A stretch of DNA of 64,000 bases from Brachycybe producta (Eukaryota; Arthropoda; Diplopoda; Playtdesmida; Andrognathidae), in contig JAUPFP010000008.1 in assembly GCA_036925085.1 (NCBI GenBank), forward strand, positions 713,501 to 777,500, read 5' to 3'. The notes beneath the pieces are model-generated. The model did no database searches, had not been told where the DNA came from, and was given only the letters and a program-made list of their open reading frames with translations. Shown here piece after piece: positions 1,240 to 46,137 of the stretch. Position numbers and translations under genes: made by a program. Each line of letters opens with the position of its first letter. Position 1 is the stretch's first letter.

Positions 1240-3845
1240 CAACTTAAAAAAATTAAAATTGAACAGACACCACTGAGATTTGAACACATGAACATCAGTT
1301 ATTAAGCCAATGATCTTAACCACACAGCCAAACGGACAACTGCAACAATAAGTGAAATAAATTATACTTAGAAACCTTCCCAACCTTGAATGTTTACTAA
1401 AACAAAATTAAAAAAAATTCAGCCAAAGTAGATGGAGCCGCCATCTCCATTAAAAAAATTTTGCCAAAAAGTAAAAACTTTTTTTGAGGTATAGGATTTT
1501 TAACATAGAACTTTTTTAATTAATGTTTGAAATGTTTGAAGACAGGTGGTGCTTCAATCAACTATTACATAGAGTCCATGTATTAAGTGTTAGGTTAGGT
1601 TATGTTAGTGGGTTAGTGTTGGGTTAGGCTATGTTAGTGGGTTAGTGGGGGGTTAGAGTTTAAGGGGGAAAATTTAAAATTTGAAAAAATATACACACAT
1701 AACTCATGTTTAAGAGAACAACAATAGATGGCACTAGCATCTCCATTAAAAAAACTTCTTAAATATACATTTATATTGAACCACTGAGATTTGAACCCAT
1801 GAACATCAGTTAAGAAGCCAGTGATGTTAACCTCTCAGCTAAACTGACAACTGCAACAGCAAGTGAAATAAATTATACTTAGGAACCTTCCCAACCTTGA
1901 ATGTTTTCTAAAATAAAATTAAAAAAATTCAGCCAAAGTAGATGGAGCCACCATCTCCATTAAAAAATTTTTGCCAAAAAGCAAAAACTTTTTTTAGAGG
2001 TATAGGATTTTTAACATAGAACTTTTTTAATTAATGTTTGAAATGTTTGAAGACAGGTGGTGCTATACTCAACTATTACATAGAGTCCATGTATAAGGTG
2101 TTAGATTGGGTTTGGTTAGTGGGTTAGTGTTGGGATAGGCTATGTTAGTGGGTTAGTGGGGGGTTAGAGTTTAAGAGGGAAAATTTAAAATTTGAAAAAA
2201 TATACACACATAACTCATGTTTAAGAGAACAACAATAGATGGCACTAGCATCTCCATTAAAAAAATTCTTAAATATACATTTACATTGATCCACTGAGAT
2301 TTGAACCCATGAACATCAGTTAACAAGCCAGTGATGTTAACCCCACAGCTAAACTGGCAACTGCAACAGCAAGTGAAATAAATTATACTTAGGAATTTTC
2401 CCAACCTTGAATGTTTTCTAAAATAAAATTAAAAAAAATCAGCCAAAGTAGATGGAGCCACCATCTCCATTAAAAATTTATTGCCAAAAAGCAAAAACTT
2501 TTTTTAGAGGTATAGGATTTTTAACATAGAACTTTTTTAATTAATGTTTGAAATGTTTGAAGACAGGTGGCGCTATACTCAACTATTACATAGAGTCCAT
2601 GTATAAGGTGTTAGATTGGGTTTGGTTAGTGGGTTAGTGTTGGGTTAGGCTATGTTAGTGGGTTAGTGGGGGGTTAGAGTTTAAGAGGGAAAATTTAAAA
2701 TTTGAAAAAATATACACACATAACTCATGTTTAAGAGAACAACAATAGATGGCGCTAGCATCTCCATTAAAAAAATTCTTAAATATACATTTACATTGAA
2801 CCACTGAGATTCGAACCCATGAACATCAGTTAACAAGCCAGTGATGTTAACCCCACAGCTAAACTGGCAACTGCCTCAGCAAGTGAAATAAATTATACTT
2901 AGGAATTTTCCCAACCTTGAATGTTTTCTAAAATAAAATTAAAAAAATTCAGCCAAAGTAGATGGAGCCACCATCTCCATTAAAATTTTTTTGCCAAAAA
3001 GCAAAAACTTTTTTTAGAGGTATAGGATTTTTAACATAGAACTTTTTTAATTAATGTTTGAAATGTTTGAAGACAGGCGGTGCTACAATCAACTATTACA
3101 TAGAGTCCATGTATTAAGTGTTAGGTTTGGTTATGTTACTGGGTTAGTGTTGGGTTAGGTTAGGTTAGTGGGTTAGGAGAGTTCGAGTTTAAGAGGGAAA
3201 ATTTAAAATTCGAAAATAAATAAACTTGTAAGTCATGTTTATTAAGTAAACAACAATAGATAGCACCAGCATCTCTCCATTAAAAAATTTCTTAAATATA
3301 CATTTATATTGAACAGACACCACTGAGATTTGAACCCATGAACATCAATTTAGAAGGCAGTGATGTTAACCCCACAACTAAACTGACAACTACAACAACA
3401 AGTCAAATAAATTATACTTAGGAACCTTCCCAACCTTCAATGTTTACTAAAACAAAATTAAAATAAATTCAGCCAAAGTAGATGGAGCCACCATCTCCAT
3501 TAAAAAATTTTTGCCAAAAAGTAAAAACTTTTTTTGAGGTATAGGATTTTTAACATAGAACTTTTTTAATTAATGTTTGAAATGTTTGAAGACAGGTGGT
3601 GCTTCAATCAACTATTACATAGAGTCCATGTATAAGGTGTTAGGTTAGGTTATGTTATAGGTTTAGTGTTGGGTTAGGTTAGGTTAGTGAGTTAGTGTTG
3701 GGTTAGGCTATGTTAGTGGGTTAGTGAGGGGGGGTTAGAGTTTAAGAGGGAAAATTTAAAATTCAAAAAAATATACTCAAAACTCATGTTTAAGTAAACA
3801 ACAATAGATAGCGCCAGCATCTCCATTAAAAAAAGTTCTTAAATT
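1240..3845. repeat. tandem array of five ~511-bp units
   Basis: The marker CCACTGAGAT occurs at 1270, 1781, 2291, 2801 and 3320, giving periods of 511, 510, 510 and 519 bp. Each unit contains in order: a tRNA-like segment (complement), a block with the phrase AGATGGAGCCACCATCTCCA (an internal palindrome), an A/T-rich spacer, and a G-rich block built on GGTTAGTG and GGGTTAGG. Units 2-4 are most alike; units 1 and 5 share variants such as GAACAGACACCACTGAG, as outer copies of an array often do. Short frames inside it are not coding. Confidence 0.9.
2801..2871 (-). repeat. tRNA-like segment of array unit 4 (best B box)
   Basis: On the complement, 2817-2805 reads GGGTTCGAATCTC, close to the RNA polymerase III B-box consensus GGTTCGANTCC. 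About 35-45 bases upstream lies TTTAGCTGTGGGG in the A-box position. Unit 2 (1781-1851) has the better A box, TAGCTGAGAGG, with GGTTCAAATCTC as B box. The anticodon and acceptor arms do not form a convincing cloverleaf, so this is a tRNA-derived, SINE-like head and not a working tRNA gene. The same segment recurs at 1270, 1781, 2291 and 3320. Confidence 0.6.
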
Positions 3846-3854
3846 TTGGAGGGG

Positions 3855-4075
3855 AATTTTGGACAGGCATTTAGAAAACAGATGAACACAAGTTAGCTCC
3901 GCCCTTTTTATGACGAATTCAACTTCTAGTTGATTGGTTATGTAGTCTGACGTCACATGCTCTGCCTTTTTCAACGTCGAACCACAAAACAAACCAATTA
4001 GAAGTTGCTGGTCGTCATAAAAAGGGCGGAGCCAACTGGTGTTCGTCCCCGATTTCTAGATGCCTGTGAATTTTG
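3855..4075. mobile_element. foldback MITE with GGCGGAG/TGACGTCA core
   Basis: GCTCCGCCCTTTTTATGACG near 3897 is matched in inverted orientation by CGTCATAAAAAGGGCGGAGC near 4013, and ACTTCTAGTTGATTGGTT is matched by AACCAATTAGAAGTTG, forming a long imperfect hairpin. The outer ends also pair weakly (GGACAGGCATTTAGAAA against TTTCTAGATGCCTGTG). The loop contains TGACGTCA at 3948-3955. A related element lies at 47057-47177. Confidence 0.7.
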
Positions 4076-8339: not shown

Positions 8340-10258
8340 ATGGTGCTCGAAAGTACGATGGTTTGGTAAGTTACTCGTAAACAAAACACAAATATTGCAG
8401 GATATAAGTAGAATTTTGCATGAAAGATCATAAAATAGTACAGATTATCAATAAAACTCCACGAAATTTCTTCAATGCTGAAAAAATAGCTGATTAGATG
8501 GGTTTTAATGTCCATTCTGTTCATAATGTCAATGACTTTGCCAAATTGAAGGAACAAAATACATTGATTACTATTGTTAACGTTGTTGTAGTGCTTGTTA
8601 TCAATCGATTATTTTTTGTTATTATTCGTATGAAACAGTGTCGACAATAGCGAGTATATGAGGAATGGAGATTACATTCCTACTCGGCTCCAAGCTCAAC
8701 AGGATGCCGTCAACATGATCTGTCACTCGAAGACCCGTTCCAATCCGGAAAACAACGTCGGACTTCTTACTTTGGCTAATACGGAGGTATTGGCCACCCT
8801 TACTTCAGACGCAGGTCGAATCCTTTCTAAACTGCATCAGGTTCAACCGAACGGAAATATTAACTTGTTGAGTGGAATAAGAATCGCTCATGTAATTATA
8901 ATCATAACAACGCGTTTCGTTATGTTATACTCATTCCTATTCTTCTTTTTTGTATTTAGCTCGCTTTAAAACATCGTCAAGGGAAGAACCATAAGATGAG
9001 GATTGTCGTTTTTGTCGGAAGTCCGATCGAGAGTGACGAGAAAGAGGTAAAAAAAAGAGGATCTTTTTCATTATGGCTTATAACAAGTGGTTCTTGAACT
9101 TTACAGCTCGTGAAACTCGCCAAGAGACTTAAGAAGGAGAAAGTCAACGTTGATATCATCAACTTTGGAGAAGACGTGAGAAACGCATGAACCCTCAATT
9201 CTTTTATAAGACCGTTTCATTTCATATATTCTATCACAGGTCATCAATTCGGATAAGTTGACATCGTTCGTAAACACGATCAACGGGAAGGAAGGTGCTG
9301 GATCGCATCTAGTAACCGTTCCACCAGGTCCTCACTTGTCAGAAGCGCTCCTCACTTCGCCTGTTATTCAAGGAGAAGATGGAACTGGAGCTATTGGACT
9401 CGGAAGCGCAACTGGCTTCGAATTCGGAGTGGATCCAAACGAAGATCCGGAATTGGCCTTGGTTTGTCTCATGGTGTTGTTACTTTTAGAATACTCTTTA
9501 GTATTTTCTTCTTGCCAAATCAAAAGGCTTTACGTGTTTCGATGGAGGAACAACGTCAGAGACAAGAAGATGAGGCTCGAAGGGCAGCTGCTCAGTCGGC
9601 AGCCGAAGCTGGAGTTGATGTTAAAACGGAGCCAACAACTGACGAAGGTAAAAAATAATCCTTTAGAAATATAAACTCTTTTAAACCAAACGTCCTTACC
9701 ATTGCAGGAACTAGCGAAGAAGCTCTTCTCGAAAAAGCGCTGGCACTTTCTCTCGTTCAAGAAGGTCAAGCCGAAGCTGTCAAAGATCTAGATTTTGCTG
9801 CAATGACTGAGGACGAACAGATTGCTTATGCGATGAAGATGTCGTTGCAAAATCGTAAGTGCTGCATCTACTTTTGAAGTACCTGTACTGTAGTCTTGTT
9901 ATATACTTTCTTTTCTTGTTTTTTTATTTTAGAATCCGATTCTGGCGAGATGGAAACAGAGGGATCGGATAACCCAGTTCCAATGGAGACCGACGATGCA
10001 GAGGTTGGCAACAGGGTACGAAGACTTGAAACGTTTCATTCATAATGCTTTAAAACGATTTGTATCTTCCACAATTAGACCGAGAGCGAGGATTACTCAG
10101 AGGTTATGAACGATCCGGCGTTTCTTCAAAGCGTTCTGGAAAACTTGCCCGGAGTCGATCCGAGCAGCGAGGCGATAAGAACGGCTATGGGAGCGCTATC
10201 GCAACAGCAAGACAAGGTTAAGAAGGAAAAGGACGCAGATAAATCGGATAAACAATGA
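8340..10258 (+). CDS. PSMD4: 26S proteasome ubiquitin receptor Rpn10 (PSMD4)
   Basis: A subunit at the hinge of the proteasome base and lid that captures polyubiquitinated proteins. Nine exons: 8340-8365, 8639-8891, 8960-9046, 9107-9175, 9240-9461, 9527-9647, 9708-9854, 9933-10015 and 10079-10258; 395 residues (human 377). The N-terminal VWA domain (about 1-190) begins [20 protein letters not shown], almost the human sequence. Ubiquitin-interacting motifs are at about 213-228 ([15 protein letters not shown]) and 294-308 ([15 protein letters not shown]), with a third consensus-fitting motif at 263-278 ([16 protein letters not shown]) that is degenerate in the human protein. The end is [17 protein letters not shown] followed by a lysine-rich tail. 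Phases agree at all eight joins. Convergent with alpha-catenin. Confidence 0.98.
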
Positions 10259-11604: not shown

Positions 11605-14600
11605 CTAAACATTTTCTGCAGGGCTCTGAAACTCGCTAAGAGCTTTGATGGCAGAAATGTGTTTCTTCTGCGATCCCTTGCGTACTTTAGCACGAACTTC
11701 TTCCGGTTTCTCTCGACGAACGAGTGGCTTCTTCTCAGGCGCTTTCATTTTCCACACAACGATTGGCGACTTGAGAATAATAAAAGAAATGAATTACTAA
11801 GTCGATGCAAAACATTAAATATCTCAAAACACAAATCAGTTAACACTTACGCTAACCATTCCACTTCTCGGATACTGTTTTTTTTTGTTTAAAAAGTAAA
11901 ATAAAACATAAGTAAACAACAAAAAACAGAAACAAAAAGCTAGTTAAATACCTTTGTAGACGCTACATAGGACGCTTTAACGGTCAATACGACGGCATTC
12001 ATCAAATTCTTAGCCGCTTGAATCAAAGAAGTAGCGCTGTCCAGCTGAAAAATATGTTTTAGACATTTGAAAATTTACAAAGTGACTAAAAATAGAAAAG
12101 AGAAGCAACACTTAACACAGACACAAATGGGAGGAGCAGGTTACGAAAAAAGCACCAATAACACAAATCTATCAAAAATCATAAAAACGGATAGAATTCG
12201 CATTCAAAATATAAATTTGATTATTCAACGAAAACAAAACTAAACTAAAGCATTCCAAAAATTAAAATAAATAAATGGATAAAAACAAAAAAAAAATGCA
12301 CGCAAATGTTAACTAATTTCGAAAAAATAAAAAACTGGGATCGACAACATCGACGACGACGATTACGACAAATTTTGTTTTGTAATGTCGTACCCCCGAA
12401 ACCACCAATTCTCCACTAATATTTTGAACATCTGCCTTCACTTTACTAGTGATATTAAGTTGGTGGCAGTACAACGCTATACGCTGAAGATATGCGAGTA
12501 GGTCTTTCTTGGTGCTGGATTCTGGACACTGCAACAGTAGGAAACGGAACAAACGGGACAGATAAGCATCGGATGCAATTAAGATGGTAACGCTACTTAC
12601 CCCAGACACAACAAGTTCGCCACTATGAACCTGGATTTCGGCCTTCACTTTGCTCGTAATGTTTAACTGGTGACAGTAAAGGGCTATCCGTTCCAGATAA
12701 GCCACCAAATCTTTCTTTGTGCTCGACTCTGGGCACTACACGAATTGATTTCACACAAATTTTCAATTGGATTCCCCACCCTCGATTAAATCACAAGAAG
12801 GTTAAGTGACATTTAAATTCTTTCGAATTAATAGTCATAAAAACCAGTAAAAGGTTATTAAAATATAACAAGTCAAAAGAAGCAGGTTTTAAAGAGTCGA
12901 ATTAGTAATTTAGCCACCACCAAATTGTTTCCTCGTGAAATAAAAATTTTGATAATTGAAGTTTTCCCAACTACAAAGAAAACGACGATCGAGATAAAAC
13001 ACACGCTCCGAAAACAGAGCTAAAGATACCTGGTCTGCGATCTGGCGAGCAAGTTTATCCAGCTTAGTGCCAGCTTCAGAGATCTTTTTGGCAGCATTGA
13101 TAACATCCATGGTTGTCTTAAGAGGGCCTCGGCCTCTGCAAAAGATTCAAAATGAAAAACAAACCGATAAAATAACTGCTTTCTTCCATTTAAGGTGGTT
13201 TTAATGTATTTTAGAAACTAGAAGAGTAACACAATCACATAAGGGTATTTTTCATGTTGATATTTCTTTTTAAAATGAATTTATTGTTGTCTATAAAAAG
13301 TTCATTTTGAATAATATCAACATGAAGTGATTCAGCTACCGTTCTAGTTTCTAACACACTTTCAATTTCTCCTTAATTTAGCTCTTCTGAAATAAATAAA
13401 TGAATGTGTAAACCTAGTAAAATCTGTCATCTCCATCATTATCATGCACATGTGTTTTGCAAGTACAATGATATCGTTGCCTGTGTCATCCCATTTGGCG
13501 ACCTCACGATCGAATTTAGATTTCTCCGAGCGGAAAATCTCCACTTGTTGAAGAATCTTTTCCTTGTCTTCTTTGGCCATAAAACGCATCGCATCCTTAC
13601 ATAAATATAATATCCAACTTAGAACAAGCAAAGATGAGCAATAACTATATTCGTAACCTTACTCGAGTGTTATTGATTCCGCTGATGTCGGGATACTCGT
13701 CGTGTTCGGTGTGTGCACTTGCTGAAAACGTTTAAAATGTTACAAATTGAAGCGATTTTCTATTTGCATATATCGTTTTGAAAGTGCATAACGAACAATC
13801 AGTTAAAAAAAAGTTAGAGCATTACGTCCAACCCAGGGATAGAAAACGTCACCAGAAACACACACAAACACGTCTTAAGTTATAAATTACAATAGAAGAT
13901 CAGATGAAATCGGATTCCCGAATATAAATCCGTTAAAATTGCAATCATGCACCCAAGTTTTTATTAGTAAGTGGTGTGAGAACCAAAATTTTGTGGGGTA
14001 GTAACTACGACCATCTTACATTTACTCCTCGTTTCGTAAGTGTTATCCTCGTATTCTATTTCAGTTTCACTGTCGAGTTCTTCGGCAGTCTGAAAAGCGA
14101 GTATTTTTGGAACCATATAAACAACAGATAAAAAAAACTGCGGCATAAAATTTTAGTTTTTTGAGGTTTTGTTTTATGTATCGTAAAATGTGGCGAGAAA
14201 AGTTCCATTCGATGTTTCTACAACATTTTCTTTCCCCGAGTCGAGCTAATAAAAAACAAAGCTGCAGCTTTCACAAACTATATTATAAATTAACCTCCTT
14301 ACATTTGCTTCGTGTATCGTACGTGCCCTGTTCATCGAGCAGCACTTCGTCTGGATCCAATTCCTCATCAGTCTACACATACACGTAACATAACAAACGA
14401 ACTAGCCTCTTATTACGTTCAATCAAAAATCACAATGCCTAAATTGTGAACTCAACTCGACACAAGATAAAAAGTTATTAGAACTTAAAAATGCATCTGA
14501 AAGTCAAGAAGCCTGAAAATGATAAATGAAAGGAAATGTTAACGAACTAACCCTGTTCATGAGAACGGCACGACGGATTTCGCGGACGCCATCGTAAACA

Positions 14601-18783: not shown

Positions 18784-21700
18784 ATGACAAAGTGGACACA
18801 AGTTGTAGAAAAGGATAAGTTTGGTGTTGGTAAGTTTCTATATTACAGTAGTATCTCATATTCTAAATTTCTAATCTAATCTAACAAGTTGTACGATGAT
18901 CAAAATGCTTGATAAGCTAATGCAGGTGTAATAATAGCAATAATATATATAATATATATTTTAAAAAAAATATACGTTGAAATAAATAAACACAGAAAAA
19001 AGTATGAAATAAAATCAAGCAATGTTTTTTTTGTTGTCGAAATTAAATCCAATTAAACACGTGTTTTTTGTCTCTTCTGAGATTGTTTTATGGAAATCAT
19101 TAAGCCATCTGTGGTCGTAAAGTGACTTCAAGTACATGAATTATGAATGAAAGGTCCACTTTACGACCGCGATGACGTCATATTTGAGAGCCACGCCTCA
19201 AAGGATGTAATAAAATATAATTGTTAAAAATGTATTATTCTATAATAATAATATTATAAAGGATGAGATTAAATGGAAATTATTTAATAAAGGTCACAAA
19301 AATAATTTTGTAAACGGAATAATAAATATAATATGAAATGTGACTTTGAGAATTTAAATAAAAAATGATTTTCTTTTCTGTGTGTGTTTTTTTTTTATAT
19401 TTTCGCCATTTCTTTCAAATTAAATAATTTTTCTTACACACTCTTTAAAGGGTTCATCTCAGAATTAAGTGAAAATTGAAGATTGATTTTGATGTTTTTG
19501 AAATTACAGAAATTACAGTACAATTTTTCAGGGCCGTCTTTAAGTCTTTTGTGGCCCCTGGCACAAGATTTATTTGAGGCCCCCCCAACCATGCCTTACA
19601 AATAAACTCATTTTTCTCCAAAGAACCAGTGTTCTATATATAAAAAGTATTGATGATTCCATAATTTCCATTGTATATATTGGAACAGGACTTTTATGAA
19701 GTAAATCACATAAGTGAATAGGCCTATTTTTTTAAAATAGTAAAATGTTTTTGATGTCGGATAAATTGAAATTAAAGATTTAAAAATACAGAAAATAGTG
19801 ACAATTAACTGAGTGAGGCCCTAGTTTAGACGGAGGCCCTAGTTTAGACGGAGGCCCTGGGCCAGGGCCCTTATAGTTACAGAAAGTGTTTCATGTTTTT
19901 TTTTACGATCAACTTTTAAAAGAAATATGAATGTAATTGGAATTTGTAGAAGGATGTCTCTCTATCCTTTTAGATGAGTAAAACACATGATATAAAGAAT
20001 TTTAATAAAAAATTGTTTAAAAATGATATAAACATTTTCATAGTTATAATAGTTATTTCCTTTTGATATATTTCCAAAAAAAAAAAAATAATTTGGATCC
20101 TAAAAATTGTTTACTGTGTAAACGTTTTTAAGATTTCATTTTAATAATTCATTAATAACACAATTCAAATCAATTTACTTATTTTAAAATTTACTTTACA
20201 AAATCTAGCTAGAGATATATTAATATAAATTTTAAACAAAAAAGTTAAAAAGTTAGAATTAAGGTGGTTTTATAATGTGTAAACTACTCTTTTATCTGTT
20301 TTTATTCTGTTTTTTTAGGAACTAAATGAAGAGAAATTTGAAAGTATTTTAGAAAATAGAAGAATAGCTCATTTCAGGATTATATTTCGTGTTGATATCT
20401 TTTAAAATAAGCTTTTTATGATAAGTTTGAAAATTACCCAACTTTCAGCATTTTGAATGATATCAACATGAAAATACTTCTTTAATTGATTCAGCTACCC
20501 TTCTAGTTTCTAACACACTTTCAATTTCTTCTTAGTGTTGCTCCTTAAACACAGAATAATTAATCTTGTCTGACACGTATGTTCCTAATTAGACATCGTA
20601 TTTTATTTTCCAGCCATTTTCACATATCATGAAGAAAAACAACATAGATTGCGACTCTTCTGTGGCGACACAGTTCATATTTTTTGCGAAAACAAAGGTA
20701 TGTTATTGACATGCATAGAACTTCCCAAAAAAGAATACCGCTGAACCCTCACGTCCATTAACACAATAACAAAATTTCTATACTCAATTTTTACAGAATG
20801 GTACTATGGTTACCGTACCAAAGACAGAAATACAAAAGGGATTTTTCCAAAGACTTACGTTCATATCAAAGAATCGGTCTCGGACAGAAATGGTCCGTAC
20901 GAGTTCGTGTTTGCCAAAGAACCTCCAATCGCTCACGAAATCTCGAACGTCCTTCGAGAGTGGGGATTTCTTGCTAAACAGCATTACGTACGGAGGGATC
21001 AAGAGTTTGAAAAGATCAGACATATGACATACGAATTAGTAGACTGGAGGAAACAGATTCTGTCTGGAACGCTACCGGTAGATGAAATGAAGGAGATCAA
21101 ACAGAAAGTGGCTCATCTCATAGATATGGGAAACTGGTCAGTTATTCTTCGCCGTTTGGTTAGTCGATTTAATAAAACAGTAATGTGCCATGAAGATTTT
21201 TATTTTTTTCGAATTAAGGACTCTGTCTCTGGATTTGGTCGTGAGAGACGAACAGGGCAATATAATGAATCCAGACTGGACGGGTACGATAAACTTGTAT
21301 CGACAACATGCTCTCGCATCTCAAAGGATACAATCGGTGTGACTTGCAAGTCGAACGAACGAATGAATTGGCACAAATAAATTAATACATTTTGTCGTTT
21401 TAAGGCAACAAAAGGATCGTCATCACAAAAGACCGTTCCGACTTTCACTCACAGTCTTTTTGTCACCATTAAGAACTGTGTCTGTAAGATTGCGGACGAT
21501 TCGCAGATCCTAATGACACTGTACGACGCAAAAGAATACAAATACATCAGTGAGAATTATATCGTCAAATGGTTCAAAGATGGCTCCATTGATCTGGAAC
21601 AATTAGAAAACATGAAAGTCCTGTTTACGGTACAACCTTTAGCATTTTTTTTTATCGTTAATTTTGATCTAAATCAGAAATTGTTTTCTTCGTTTTTGTT

Positions 21701-43977: not shown

Positions 43978-44938
43978 ACTTGTAAGTTATCTTTTAGATT
44001 TTTAAGTCATGTTTGAATTTGATTTTTGGACCTTTATTTTGTGTACCATAATTGCATTTTTTTTAGATTAGCTTTTTAAATATTTTGTTTGTTCACACTT
44101 GTCATTCGTCATTGGCTGCACATATTATTCACAATTTTAAATGACATCCAAAAACGTTGTTTATCGAAATTTTCTCTACTTTTATATATATTATTCCTTT
44201 TCACTATTGTAACAATTATATTTGGGGCCAAAATAAAAGTAATTTACGCCTGTTGAACTGCAATATATTATTATTACCAAGAATGTAACTTAGTTACTAA
44301 TTTTTTGTACCTTTTGTTGTTCTTGTTCAACTTGATCTGGATTTGACAAATAACGTATTTTCAGATTCCTAACTACCTGTATTCCTGTTCATAATAGAAG
44401 TTTCAAATGTCTTATCAAGTACACTCAATGCGCACCGTGGCTTTTATTAGCCAGGGGAATTATGTCCCTATGTTATCAACTTATCACCTGGCACCATTAT
44501 AAAGTGACCCATTTATATTTAAAAAAAACGTTGGAAGGCCCTTGTTTATTAGGTGTGTTCCACCTCAAATGATGACGAGGATTGGAGTGCATCTAGGTAA
44601 TGTTGTTGAAGTATCCTGGCCGTGGTATTTGTTTAGTTAATTTGGGATAGAGGATGTTAATTTACATCCAACTAGCAACCAAGGCACACTAGATACTCTA
44701 ATGTAATCCCCTAATAGCTAGCCTCCTACCGAACGTCGTCGTTTGAGATAATCTTCTCAATATATTCAAGTGAATATAGTGCAGGTGCCCTAGTTTAAAC
44801 ATATCAGACACATGTCACAAGCAAAATATTAAAATACCACCCTCATATTGTGACATGTGATATAAGTAATTTTTTTAAATTTAATCGAATCGTGTGGTTC
44901 GGTGGTTCAATTGTCTCATTGACAGAGAAGACAAAAAA
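43978..44938. other. intergenic DNA between DOCK and the MARCH-type gene
   Basis: No gene or RNA was recognised. CTCATTGACAG at 44915-44925 looks like a splice acceptor 13 bases before the MARCH-type ATG, so a non-coding 5' exon may lie upstream here. Confidence 0.35.
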
Positions 44939-46137
44939 ATGATTCCCTTGAGTGTGATTAGTTTAGAAGTGGAAAATGGTGAAGAACAGGTCGATAGAAT
45001 GACACTTGATATGTGTCGTATTTGTCACTGTGGCCCAGATGAAGGTGAACTGAACATTTATTGCAAATGCGTTGGAAACGGAGGGGCTCAACATCAAAAG
45101 TGCCTTCGAAAATGGGTGAGGAGCACGCCAGAAATAGGACTGCGAAACCAATGCGAAATCTGCCGTCATCCTTACAACTTCACTTATGCATTCAACCATA
45201 ATTGTTTCGAGGTTCATAAATAATTAAAACGTTGGAATACACAGATCACTTCGGTGACCAATTTCGACTTCAAAATGAAGTCGATTTGAAGCCAAAATAG
45301 ACCACCTCGAATCTTTCCATTGGGAGTTGTTTCCATTGCGGTGAAAATTTGATCTTTTTGAAAAAAAATTTTAACTGGTGAAAAACAGAAGAATCGTGGC
45401 CCCCGACTATTCACTATCATAGGCGAGAGCCACGTTTCTTCTATTTTTCACCAGTTGAAATTATCAAAAAGGTCAAATTTTCACCACAATGGAAACAAGG
45501 CCCTTTACGAATTTACATCGAGATCATCTGCAACTTCGTTTTGAAGTCAAAATAAACCACCAAAAGTGGTCTGTGTGTCAACGGCCTAAGATCAAACAAT
45601 AAATATATATATACAAGATATTAACCGATTAAATAAATTTAGTGGAGATGCCGCAATCCTCTTCCACACGATCAATATTATGCGACCAAGACTGAGTTGG
45701 TAATTTCAACTTTAATATTTATCATGTCATGGGTATTGTGTATCTTAGACATGATTGCTATTCCTGAACTTTTCAACGGCTTCATGAAAAGAATTCAAGG
45801 AGAACAACAAGATATTCACCGTTTCAGTATATTACTGATTTTACGAATTTATAATCTTATATATCAATAAATTAACAATTTCCCTCAAAAATATATTTTC
45901 TTTCTAATTTAAGATTTATTGGATTATTTGATCCTGCTCTTGTTAGCTATTGTCGCTTTAATAGTCCTACTGTTCGTCTGTACGACAATCTCCGTATACG
46001 GAATTCAACGCTTTTTCTGGATCAATTCAATGCTGGTTATTCATCCTTTTCAGGAAGAAAATGTCTCGTCCGTCGTACATGATTTTGATGATGTTGACCT
46101 TTCGCTTGATTCTCCTTCTCTGGAAAATTCTTGTTAA
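44939..46137 (+). CDS. RING-CH (MARCH-type) membrane E3 ubiquitin ligase
   Basis: Membrane-bound MARCH ligases ubiquitinate receptors and other membrane proteins in endosomes, plasma membrane or ER. Exons: 44939-45211, 45643-45826 (alternative donor at 45820, same phase) and 45914-46137; about 226 residues. The RING-CH finger spans residues 26-75 with every ligand in place: C26-x2-C29, C42-x-C44, H52-x2-C55, C72-x2-C75 (C4HC3). Two hydrophobic segments follow, LVISTLIFIMSWVLCILDMI and LILLLLAIVALIVLLFVC, giving the usual cytosolic finger with two transmembrane passes. The tail is acidic (HDFDDVDLSLDS). Size and layout fit the MARCH2/3/9 group, but the loop sequence does not let me name a specific member. 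A GTG-initiated extension from 44894 is less likely than the ATG at 44939. Confidence 0.85.
45236..45592. mobile_element. foldback element in intron 1 of the MARCH-type gene
   Basis: Arms: ACACAGATCACTTCGGTGAC / GGTGGTTTATTTTGACTTCA-type outer ends and TTTTAACTGGTGAAAAACAG (45369-) against TTTTTCACCAGTTGAAATTA (45445-). ACCACCTCGAA and CACCACAATGGAAAC are also paired. It fills most of the intron. Confidence 0.65.

Follow-up and report, generated by a model that had tools for sequence, protein, structure and literature searches.

The window analysed here, a 64,000-nucleotide stretch of Brachycybe producta DNA, contains a complete alpha-catenin gene on its minus strand, running from ATG to stop between positions 11605 and 17335 in one open frame. 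Alpha-catenin is the protein that links cell junctions to the actin skeleton. The gene has 19 coding exon positions, or 21 exons when two twin pairs are included, with GT-AG borders at all 20 of the introns between them, and its product is 912 residues long. The product of exons 10 to 17 matches the Pfam family PF01044 Vinculin (E=1.2e-152, 510.6 bits), that of exons 10 to 15 matches catenin alpha-1 chains of the PDB with E values down to 6e-100, and over the M domain and the actin-binding domain (ABD) the PDB ranking places catenin alpha chains best and vinculins far lower. Judged from its sequence, the gene is an alpha-catenin of the invertebrate type. Micro-exon 18 (24 nt, 11874-11851, minus strand) is preceded by an A-rich acceptor tract, AAACAAAAAAAAACAG, with by far the lowest acceptor score in the gene. 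A tblastn search with one 113-residue ABD query gave no confirmed relative among 105 pattern matches in genome contigs and 12 in viral contigs.

Two exon positions of this gene are doubled in tandem, giving exons 12A and 12B of 70 nt each and exons 16A and 16B of 135 nt each. When the translations of the 21 exons were compared with the window by tblastn, a second convincing copy was found only for positions 12 (E=5e-4) and 16 (E=3e-23); the remaining off-site matches in the window had E values of 0.076 or worse, exon 18, with 8 residues, being too short for judgement. Both pairs are missing from a self-search of 1846 open reading frames, which used a cut of 1e-4 and showed matches within 6 kb only: the E value of pair 12 lies above the cut, and the two copies of pair 16 share one reading frame, of which an antisense echo alone appears. 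The introns that touch the twins are long, with at least 150 nt in five of six versus two of the 14 others (Fisher P=0.007).

Elsewhere in the window, a repeat of roughly 510 bp, with no evident gene, occurs in about five tandem copies at 1250-3900, and these fill most of the self-search list. Three short MITE-like inverted repeats on the minus strand (13360-13201, 20524-20341 and 59740-59569) carry GAAACTAGAA followed by GTAGCTGAAT, and one of these elements sits inside intron 14-15 of the alpha-catenin gene. Two further inverted repeats (43696-43453 and 51580-51085, minus strand) share TGTTTCTCAAT.TGTGGCCCAA and perhaps form one DNA-transposon-derived family. Neighbouring stretches at 20745-21377, 8634-8966 and 44885-45220 (plus strand) and at 51027-50731 and 57466-56852 (minus strand) match the Pfam DOCK_N, VWA_2, RINGv and lysyl-oxidase domains; the VWA_2 neighbour is presumably RPN10-like, and in the PDB the lysyl-oxidase neighbour matches lysyl oxidase homolog 2. 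Stretches resembling SRCR domains were seen by eye near 57 kb, where one stretch, in another frame, is without a Pfam match.

The original prediction described exons 12A (14303-14372) and 12B (14020-14089), both on the minus strand, as homologous exons of identical length and phase with intact splice sites, and each of these points was borne out. Both measure 70 nt, share 37 of 70 nucleotides and 12 of 23 residues, enter in phase 0, leave in phase 1 and have GT-AG borders. Among 100 dinucleotide-shuffled windows (one strand), the best open segment of 70 nt between AG and GT reached 6 of 23 identities to 12B, versus the 12 of 23 observed. The 12A acceptor, TATGTGTAG, is a valid AG though weak: it scores -3.1 with a leave-one-out matrix, 19th of 20, and only the acceptor of exon 18 is lower. 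The acceptors of both upstream copies, 12A and 16A, end in GTGTAG, a likeness noticed post hoc; by eye, several other acceptors also share six bases, and the likeness is given no weight. Joint inclusion of 12A and 12B breaks the frame, as predicted, with a stop inside 12B at codon 666, and skipping of both leads to a stop in exon 14 at codon 706.

The substitutions between 12A and 12B bear on their age. NG86 estimates give a dN of 0.45 and an undefined dS (-1), that is, saturation; 18 of the 33 differences fall at third positions, and eight codons differ silently while 11 change the residue, so that 11 of the 23 residues differ. In 20000 simulations of random substitution, a mean of 5.2 of the 23 residues was kept, compared to the 12 observed (P=5e-5), and a stop codon arose in 64% of cases. 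The introns adjoining both twin pairs show no relationship to each other, their ungapped identity over 60 nt being 22-35%. Because synonymous sites are saturated and the adjoining introns unrelated, we consider the duplication of exon 12 to be old and under selection.

A second tandem pair, absent from the original prediction, occupies 12735-12394 (minus strand) and encodes the actin-binding helix H4. Exon 16A (12601-12735) and its twin 16B (12394-12528) have the same length and phases and compatible splice sites with GT-AG borders, and they agree at 39 of 45 residues; the best segment in 100 shuffled windows (one strand) reached 9 of 45 identities to 16B. NG86 estimates give a dN of 0.11 and again an undefined dS (-1), that is, saturation. 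Third positions account for 29 of the 40 differences, and 25 codons differ silently versus six that change the residue. Random substitution kept a mean of 20.1 of 45 residues and introduced a stop in 77% of the simulations, none of which, among 20000, was as conserved as the observed pair. On these sequence comparisons, constraint is moderate on pair 12 and strong on pair 16. Inclusion or skipping of both 16A and 16B stays in frame, and exclusivity is therefore not enforced by the frame in this pair; gaining or losing 45 residues is likely to be harmful to a helical bundle.

Exon 16 corresponds to residues 767-811 of human alphaE-catenin and contains L785, I792, V796 and V800. In the consulted sections of the structural papers, L785A, I792A and V796A lower F-actin binding (PMC6269467), I792, V796 and V800 are actin contacts (PMC7588232), and V800 packs on V870 of the next ABD and may add to cooperativity (PMC7588230). 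L785, I792, V796 and K797 are kept in both twins. The twins differ at positions 777, 781, 799, 800, 802 and 803 in human numbering; the human residue is found in 16B at 777, 781, 800 and 802, in 16A at 799, and in neither at 803. Exon 16A, altered around the contacts L785, I792 and V796 and with a conservative exchange of Val for Ile at contact 800, would thus appear to be a fine-tuning variant and not a dead one.

Could the second copies be spurious? An assembly artefact, in which two haplotypes or loci were joined, would also arrange the copies in tandem, yet it is extremely improbable, since the twins differ at 47% (33/70) and 30% (40/135) of their bases and have unrelated introns, far beyond haplotype difference, and doubling is seen at just two of the 19 exon positions. 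A decaying duplicate, more likely 12A, which splicing rarely if ever includes, would agree with the weak 12A acceptor and with the modest number of residues shared by the two copies. However, synonymous saturation has been reached with no stop, frameshift or lost GT-AG border, the shared residues exceed those left by random substitution, length and phase have been kept exactly, and the same gene bears strong constraint on 16A and 16B; we therefore regard decay as improbable. The claim that 12A and 12B are used exclusively is well supported by frame and selection, and a candidate competing intronic pairing, described below, fits it. Both exons are thus very probably used, in a mutually exclusive manner.

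The candidate pairings in the introns around 12A and 12B are known from computed energies and were picked out by inspection, a point against them. A candidate docking site lies in the intron between the two exons (14207-14251, minus strand), a candidate upstream selector in intron 11-12A (14449-14483, minus strand) and a candidate downstream selector in intron 12B-13 (13820-13869, minus strand). The downstream pairing, 14251-14207 with 13869-13820, has an energy of -43.1 kcal/mol and 42 bp, 11 of them G-U, with one A-C mismatch; the upstream pairing, 14247-14216 with 14483-14449, has -26.9 kcal/mol and 29 bp. The part of the docking site at 14247-14216 is used by both, with 26 docking nucleotides in common, and because the same 26 nucleotides are used, the two pairings cannot coexist. 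The downstream helix encloses 12B and the upstream helix 12A, so each pairing should, under a docking-selector model, favour the other exon.

In several comparisons, these local pairings are stronger than chance. With 36-nt windows, the best summed energy was -64.8, versus a mean of -37.9 in shuffles, and was matched in none of 200 shuffles of the three introns; taken separately, the downstream energy was reached in 0/200 and the upstream one in 1/200. With the docking window fixed, the upstream selector was matched by 5 of 1000 intron shuffles and by one of 316 real segments elsewhere on the strand, and the downstream selector by none of the 316. In a scan of the middle intron, the windows that pair best with the two partners began 4 nt apart, and the downstream helix is part of the minimum-energy fold of a 929-nt region. 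When the docking and selector stretches were compared with the window by blastn, no further match appeared up to an E value of 0.01. A search of Rfam gave no match at the gathering threshold. For 16A and 16B, local intronic pairings as strong as those observed arose in 2 of 200 shuffles for the sum, 25 of 200 upstream and 17 of 200 downstream.

Energies computed over whole introns give a different picture. For introns 11-12A and 12A-12B they are at chance level, matched or exceeded in 85 and 86 of 100 shuffles, a result against the docking-selector reading for the upstream pair; for introns 12A-12B and 12B-13, 0 and 1 of 100 shuffles were as strong, but this pair comes no higher than second when the 37 intron pairs are ordered by z. 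The top pair, 16B-17 with 18-19, was unexpected, and z is as low as -2.50 and -2.35 for two pairs among the ordinary introns. Whole-intron duplex energies do not discriminate. In the 64 kb, the downstream pairing ranks 10th among the 46 separate places with an energy of -27 kcal/mol or lower (the best 30 of the 46 being listed), and the nine pairings above it resemble repeats or simple sequence by eye.

Steric hindrance was ruled out as a cause of exclusivity, the intron between 12A and 12B having 213 nt; for 16A and 16B it was ruled out likewise, their 72-nt intron resembling the 12 short introns away from the twins (58-88 nt).

In a rival account, both 12A and 12B are used, splicing factors and the strength of the splice sites select between them, wrong products decay, and the intronic complementarity is either a coincidence or the remnant of a worn inverted repeat. 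The frequency of strong pairings in the window and the chance-level energy of the upstream pair over whole introns agree with it, and the long introns flanking the twins could house protein sites. A UGCAUG, which we take to be a Fox-type motif, lies 69 nt after the 12B donor (13946-13951, minus strand); as TGCATG occurs seven times on the same strand of the window, it is weak evidence, and UGCAUG and UG-rich motifs are altogether too few or too common to carry weight. Against this account stand the convergence of two pairings on one docking stretch and the uniqueness of the stretches in the blastn search. A worn inverted repeat would moreover be expected to show G-U pairs and A-C mismatches in about equal numbers, whereas the downstream helix has 11 and one, a contrast to be read with the fact that energy-based choice of a helix itself favours G-U. 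We see splicing factors without a docking structure as a real possibility of secondary rank, and for docking-selector control of 12A and 12B, modelled from computed energies, we judge the chances to be even.

Competing docking and selector structures are known from insect Dscam (PMC5740500, citing Graveley 2005). The 12A/12B region resembles that system, as far as the consulted text describes it, in having a single docking stretch that can pair, by computation, with either of two partners but not with both. It differs from it in that the docking stretch is flanked by the two exons, one of which would be looped out by each pairing, and in that the structure is known here from computation.

The two exons encode different linkers, TDEELDPDEVLLDEQGTYDTRSK in 12A and TAEELDSETEIEYEDNTYETRSK in 12B. 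In human alphaE-catenin the corresponding linker is phosphorylated by CK2 at S641 and then by CK1 at S652, S655 and T658 (PMC12393524, PMC11744050). The millipede linker is like this phospho-linker, as given in the sections consulted, in its position, its acidic context and its equivalents of the three CK1 sites. S657, the equivalent of human S652, is encoded in 12A and 12B alike, and the single-copy exon 13 (13663-13721, minus strand) carries S660 and T663, the equivalents of human S655 and T658. Unlike mouse Ctnna1, where the consulted part of PMC12393524 places all four phospho-site codons within exon 14, B. producta would have its priming residue in an alternative exon.

Exon 12B has, as predicted, a serine at residue 642. 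Its equation with human Ser641 is approximate: HMMER alignments put Ser641 opposite T644 and S642 opposite Asp640, so that neither residue is aligned to it beyond doubt. Both S642 and T644 fit the CK2 motif [ST]xx[DE], whereas 12A reads P-D-E-V-L-L, with Pro and Asp at those places, and has no Ser or Thr at residues 637-651. The original prediction of a choice between phosphorylatable and non-phosphorylatable forms stands in part: T636 and T663 are CK2-type in both forms, the CK1-site equivalents S657, S660 and T663 are likewise in both, and only the priming site would be subject to the switch. The linker segment has a net charge of -7 in the 12A form, in the 12B form and in human. A switch is therefore plausible in a narrower sense than proposed: the two forms would be equally acidic and would differ in whether they contain a priming residue.

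Alternatively, 12A and 12B may be alternative exons whose difference is irrelevant to CK2, the linker twins altering disorder or partner binding instead. The equal charge, the shared CK1-site equivalents, the CK2-type T636 and T663 of both forms and the ambiguous position of S641 all speak for this. Yet between residues 637 and 651, the region of CK2 priming in the human protein (PMC12393524 and PMC11744050, in the sections consulted), CK2-type residues occur in 12B only. We hold irrelevance to CK2 to be a considerable possibility, short of an even one; a CK2 priming switch through 12A and 12B is itself a tentative proposal, which we would put just under even.

Taking the locus as a whole, 12A and 12B are probably an old, functional, mutually exclusive pair with docking-selector control and a CK2-related choice of product, a confidence that applies chiefly to the first part of the statement. 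In the mechanism we propose from the computed pairings, the docking stretch would pair with the intron before 12A, loop out 12A and lead to use of 12B, or else pair with the intron after 12B, loop out 12B and lead to use of 12A. Transcripts with both exons or neither meet an early stop, as the frame shows, and would be destroyed or yield truncated products. The choice would then lie between a CK2-primable linker (12B, with S642 and T644) and one without a priming residue (12A), the latter keeping equal acidity and the downstream CK1-site equivalents, while 16A and 16B would vary the actin-binding helix H4. With two pairs, up to four alpha-catenin proteins are therefore possible. More speculatively, and in our view unlikely as it stands in full, the region could act as a co-transcriptional RNA switch, in which the weaker upstream pairing forms early and gives way to the stronger downstream one when the intron of the latter has been transcribed, elongation speed or an RNA-binding protein setting the 12A to 12B ratio; together with 16A and 16B, phospho-priming and actin-bond cooperativity would be set independently.

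Criteria for mutually exclusive exons have been given as similar length, same phases, compatible GT-AG sites and homology (Pillmann et al., PMC3228551). Like the tandem-duplication exon clusters of that study, in the part consulted, the alpha-catenin pairs agree in length, phases, splice sites and homology, and the frame bars joint use of 12A and 12B; unlike them, they are hosted by alpha-catenin, and 16A and 16B are not frame-enforced. Drosophila N-Cadherin has three mutually exclusive exon pairs (PMC2655722, in the sections consulted), and like it, alpha-catenin is an adhesion-complex gene diversified through twin exons, N-Cadherin being an adhesion receptor and not an actin linker. Neither twin exons nor competing intronic structures in alpha-catenin, hmp-1 included, were found among the literature matches listed, a coverage outside which most subscription papers lie. 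Twin exons are already a known kind, as are competing intronic structures; alpha-catenin as their host appears to be new, and what follows from it can be tested unusually well.

Those who described the CK2-CK1 relay of alpha-catenin called its logic a puzzle (PMC12393524, in the part consulted). If our reading is true, primable and unprimable alpha-catenin made from one gene amount to a natural experiment on the logic of that relay, and the second twin pair, lying in the F-actin-binding helix, would provide naturally occurring variants of the actin bond. The animal is probably able to tune cell adhesion through the splicing of alpha-catenin.
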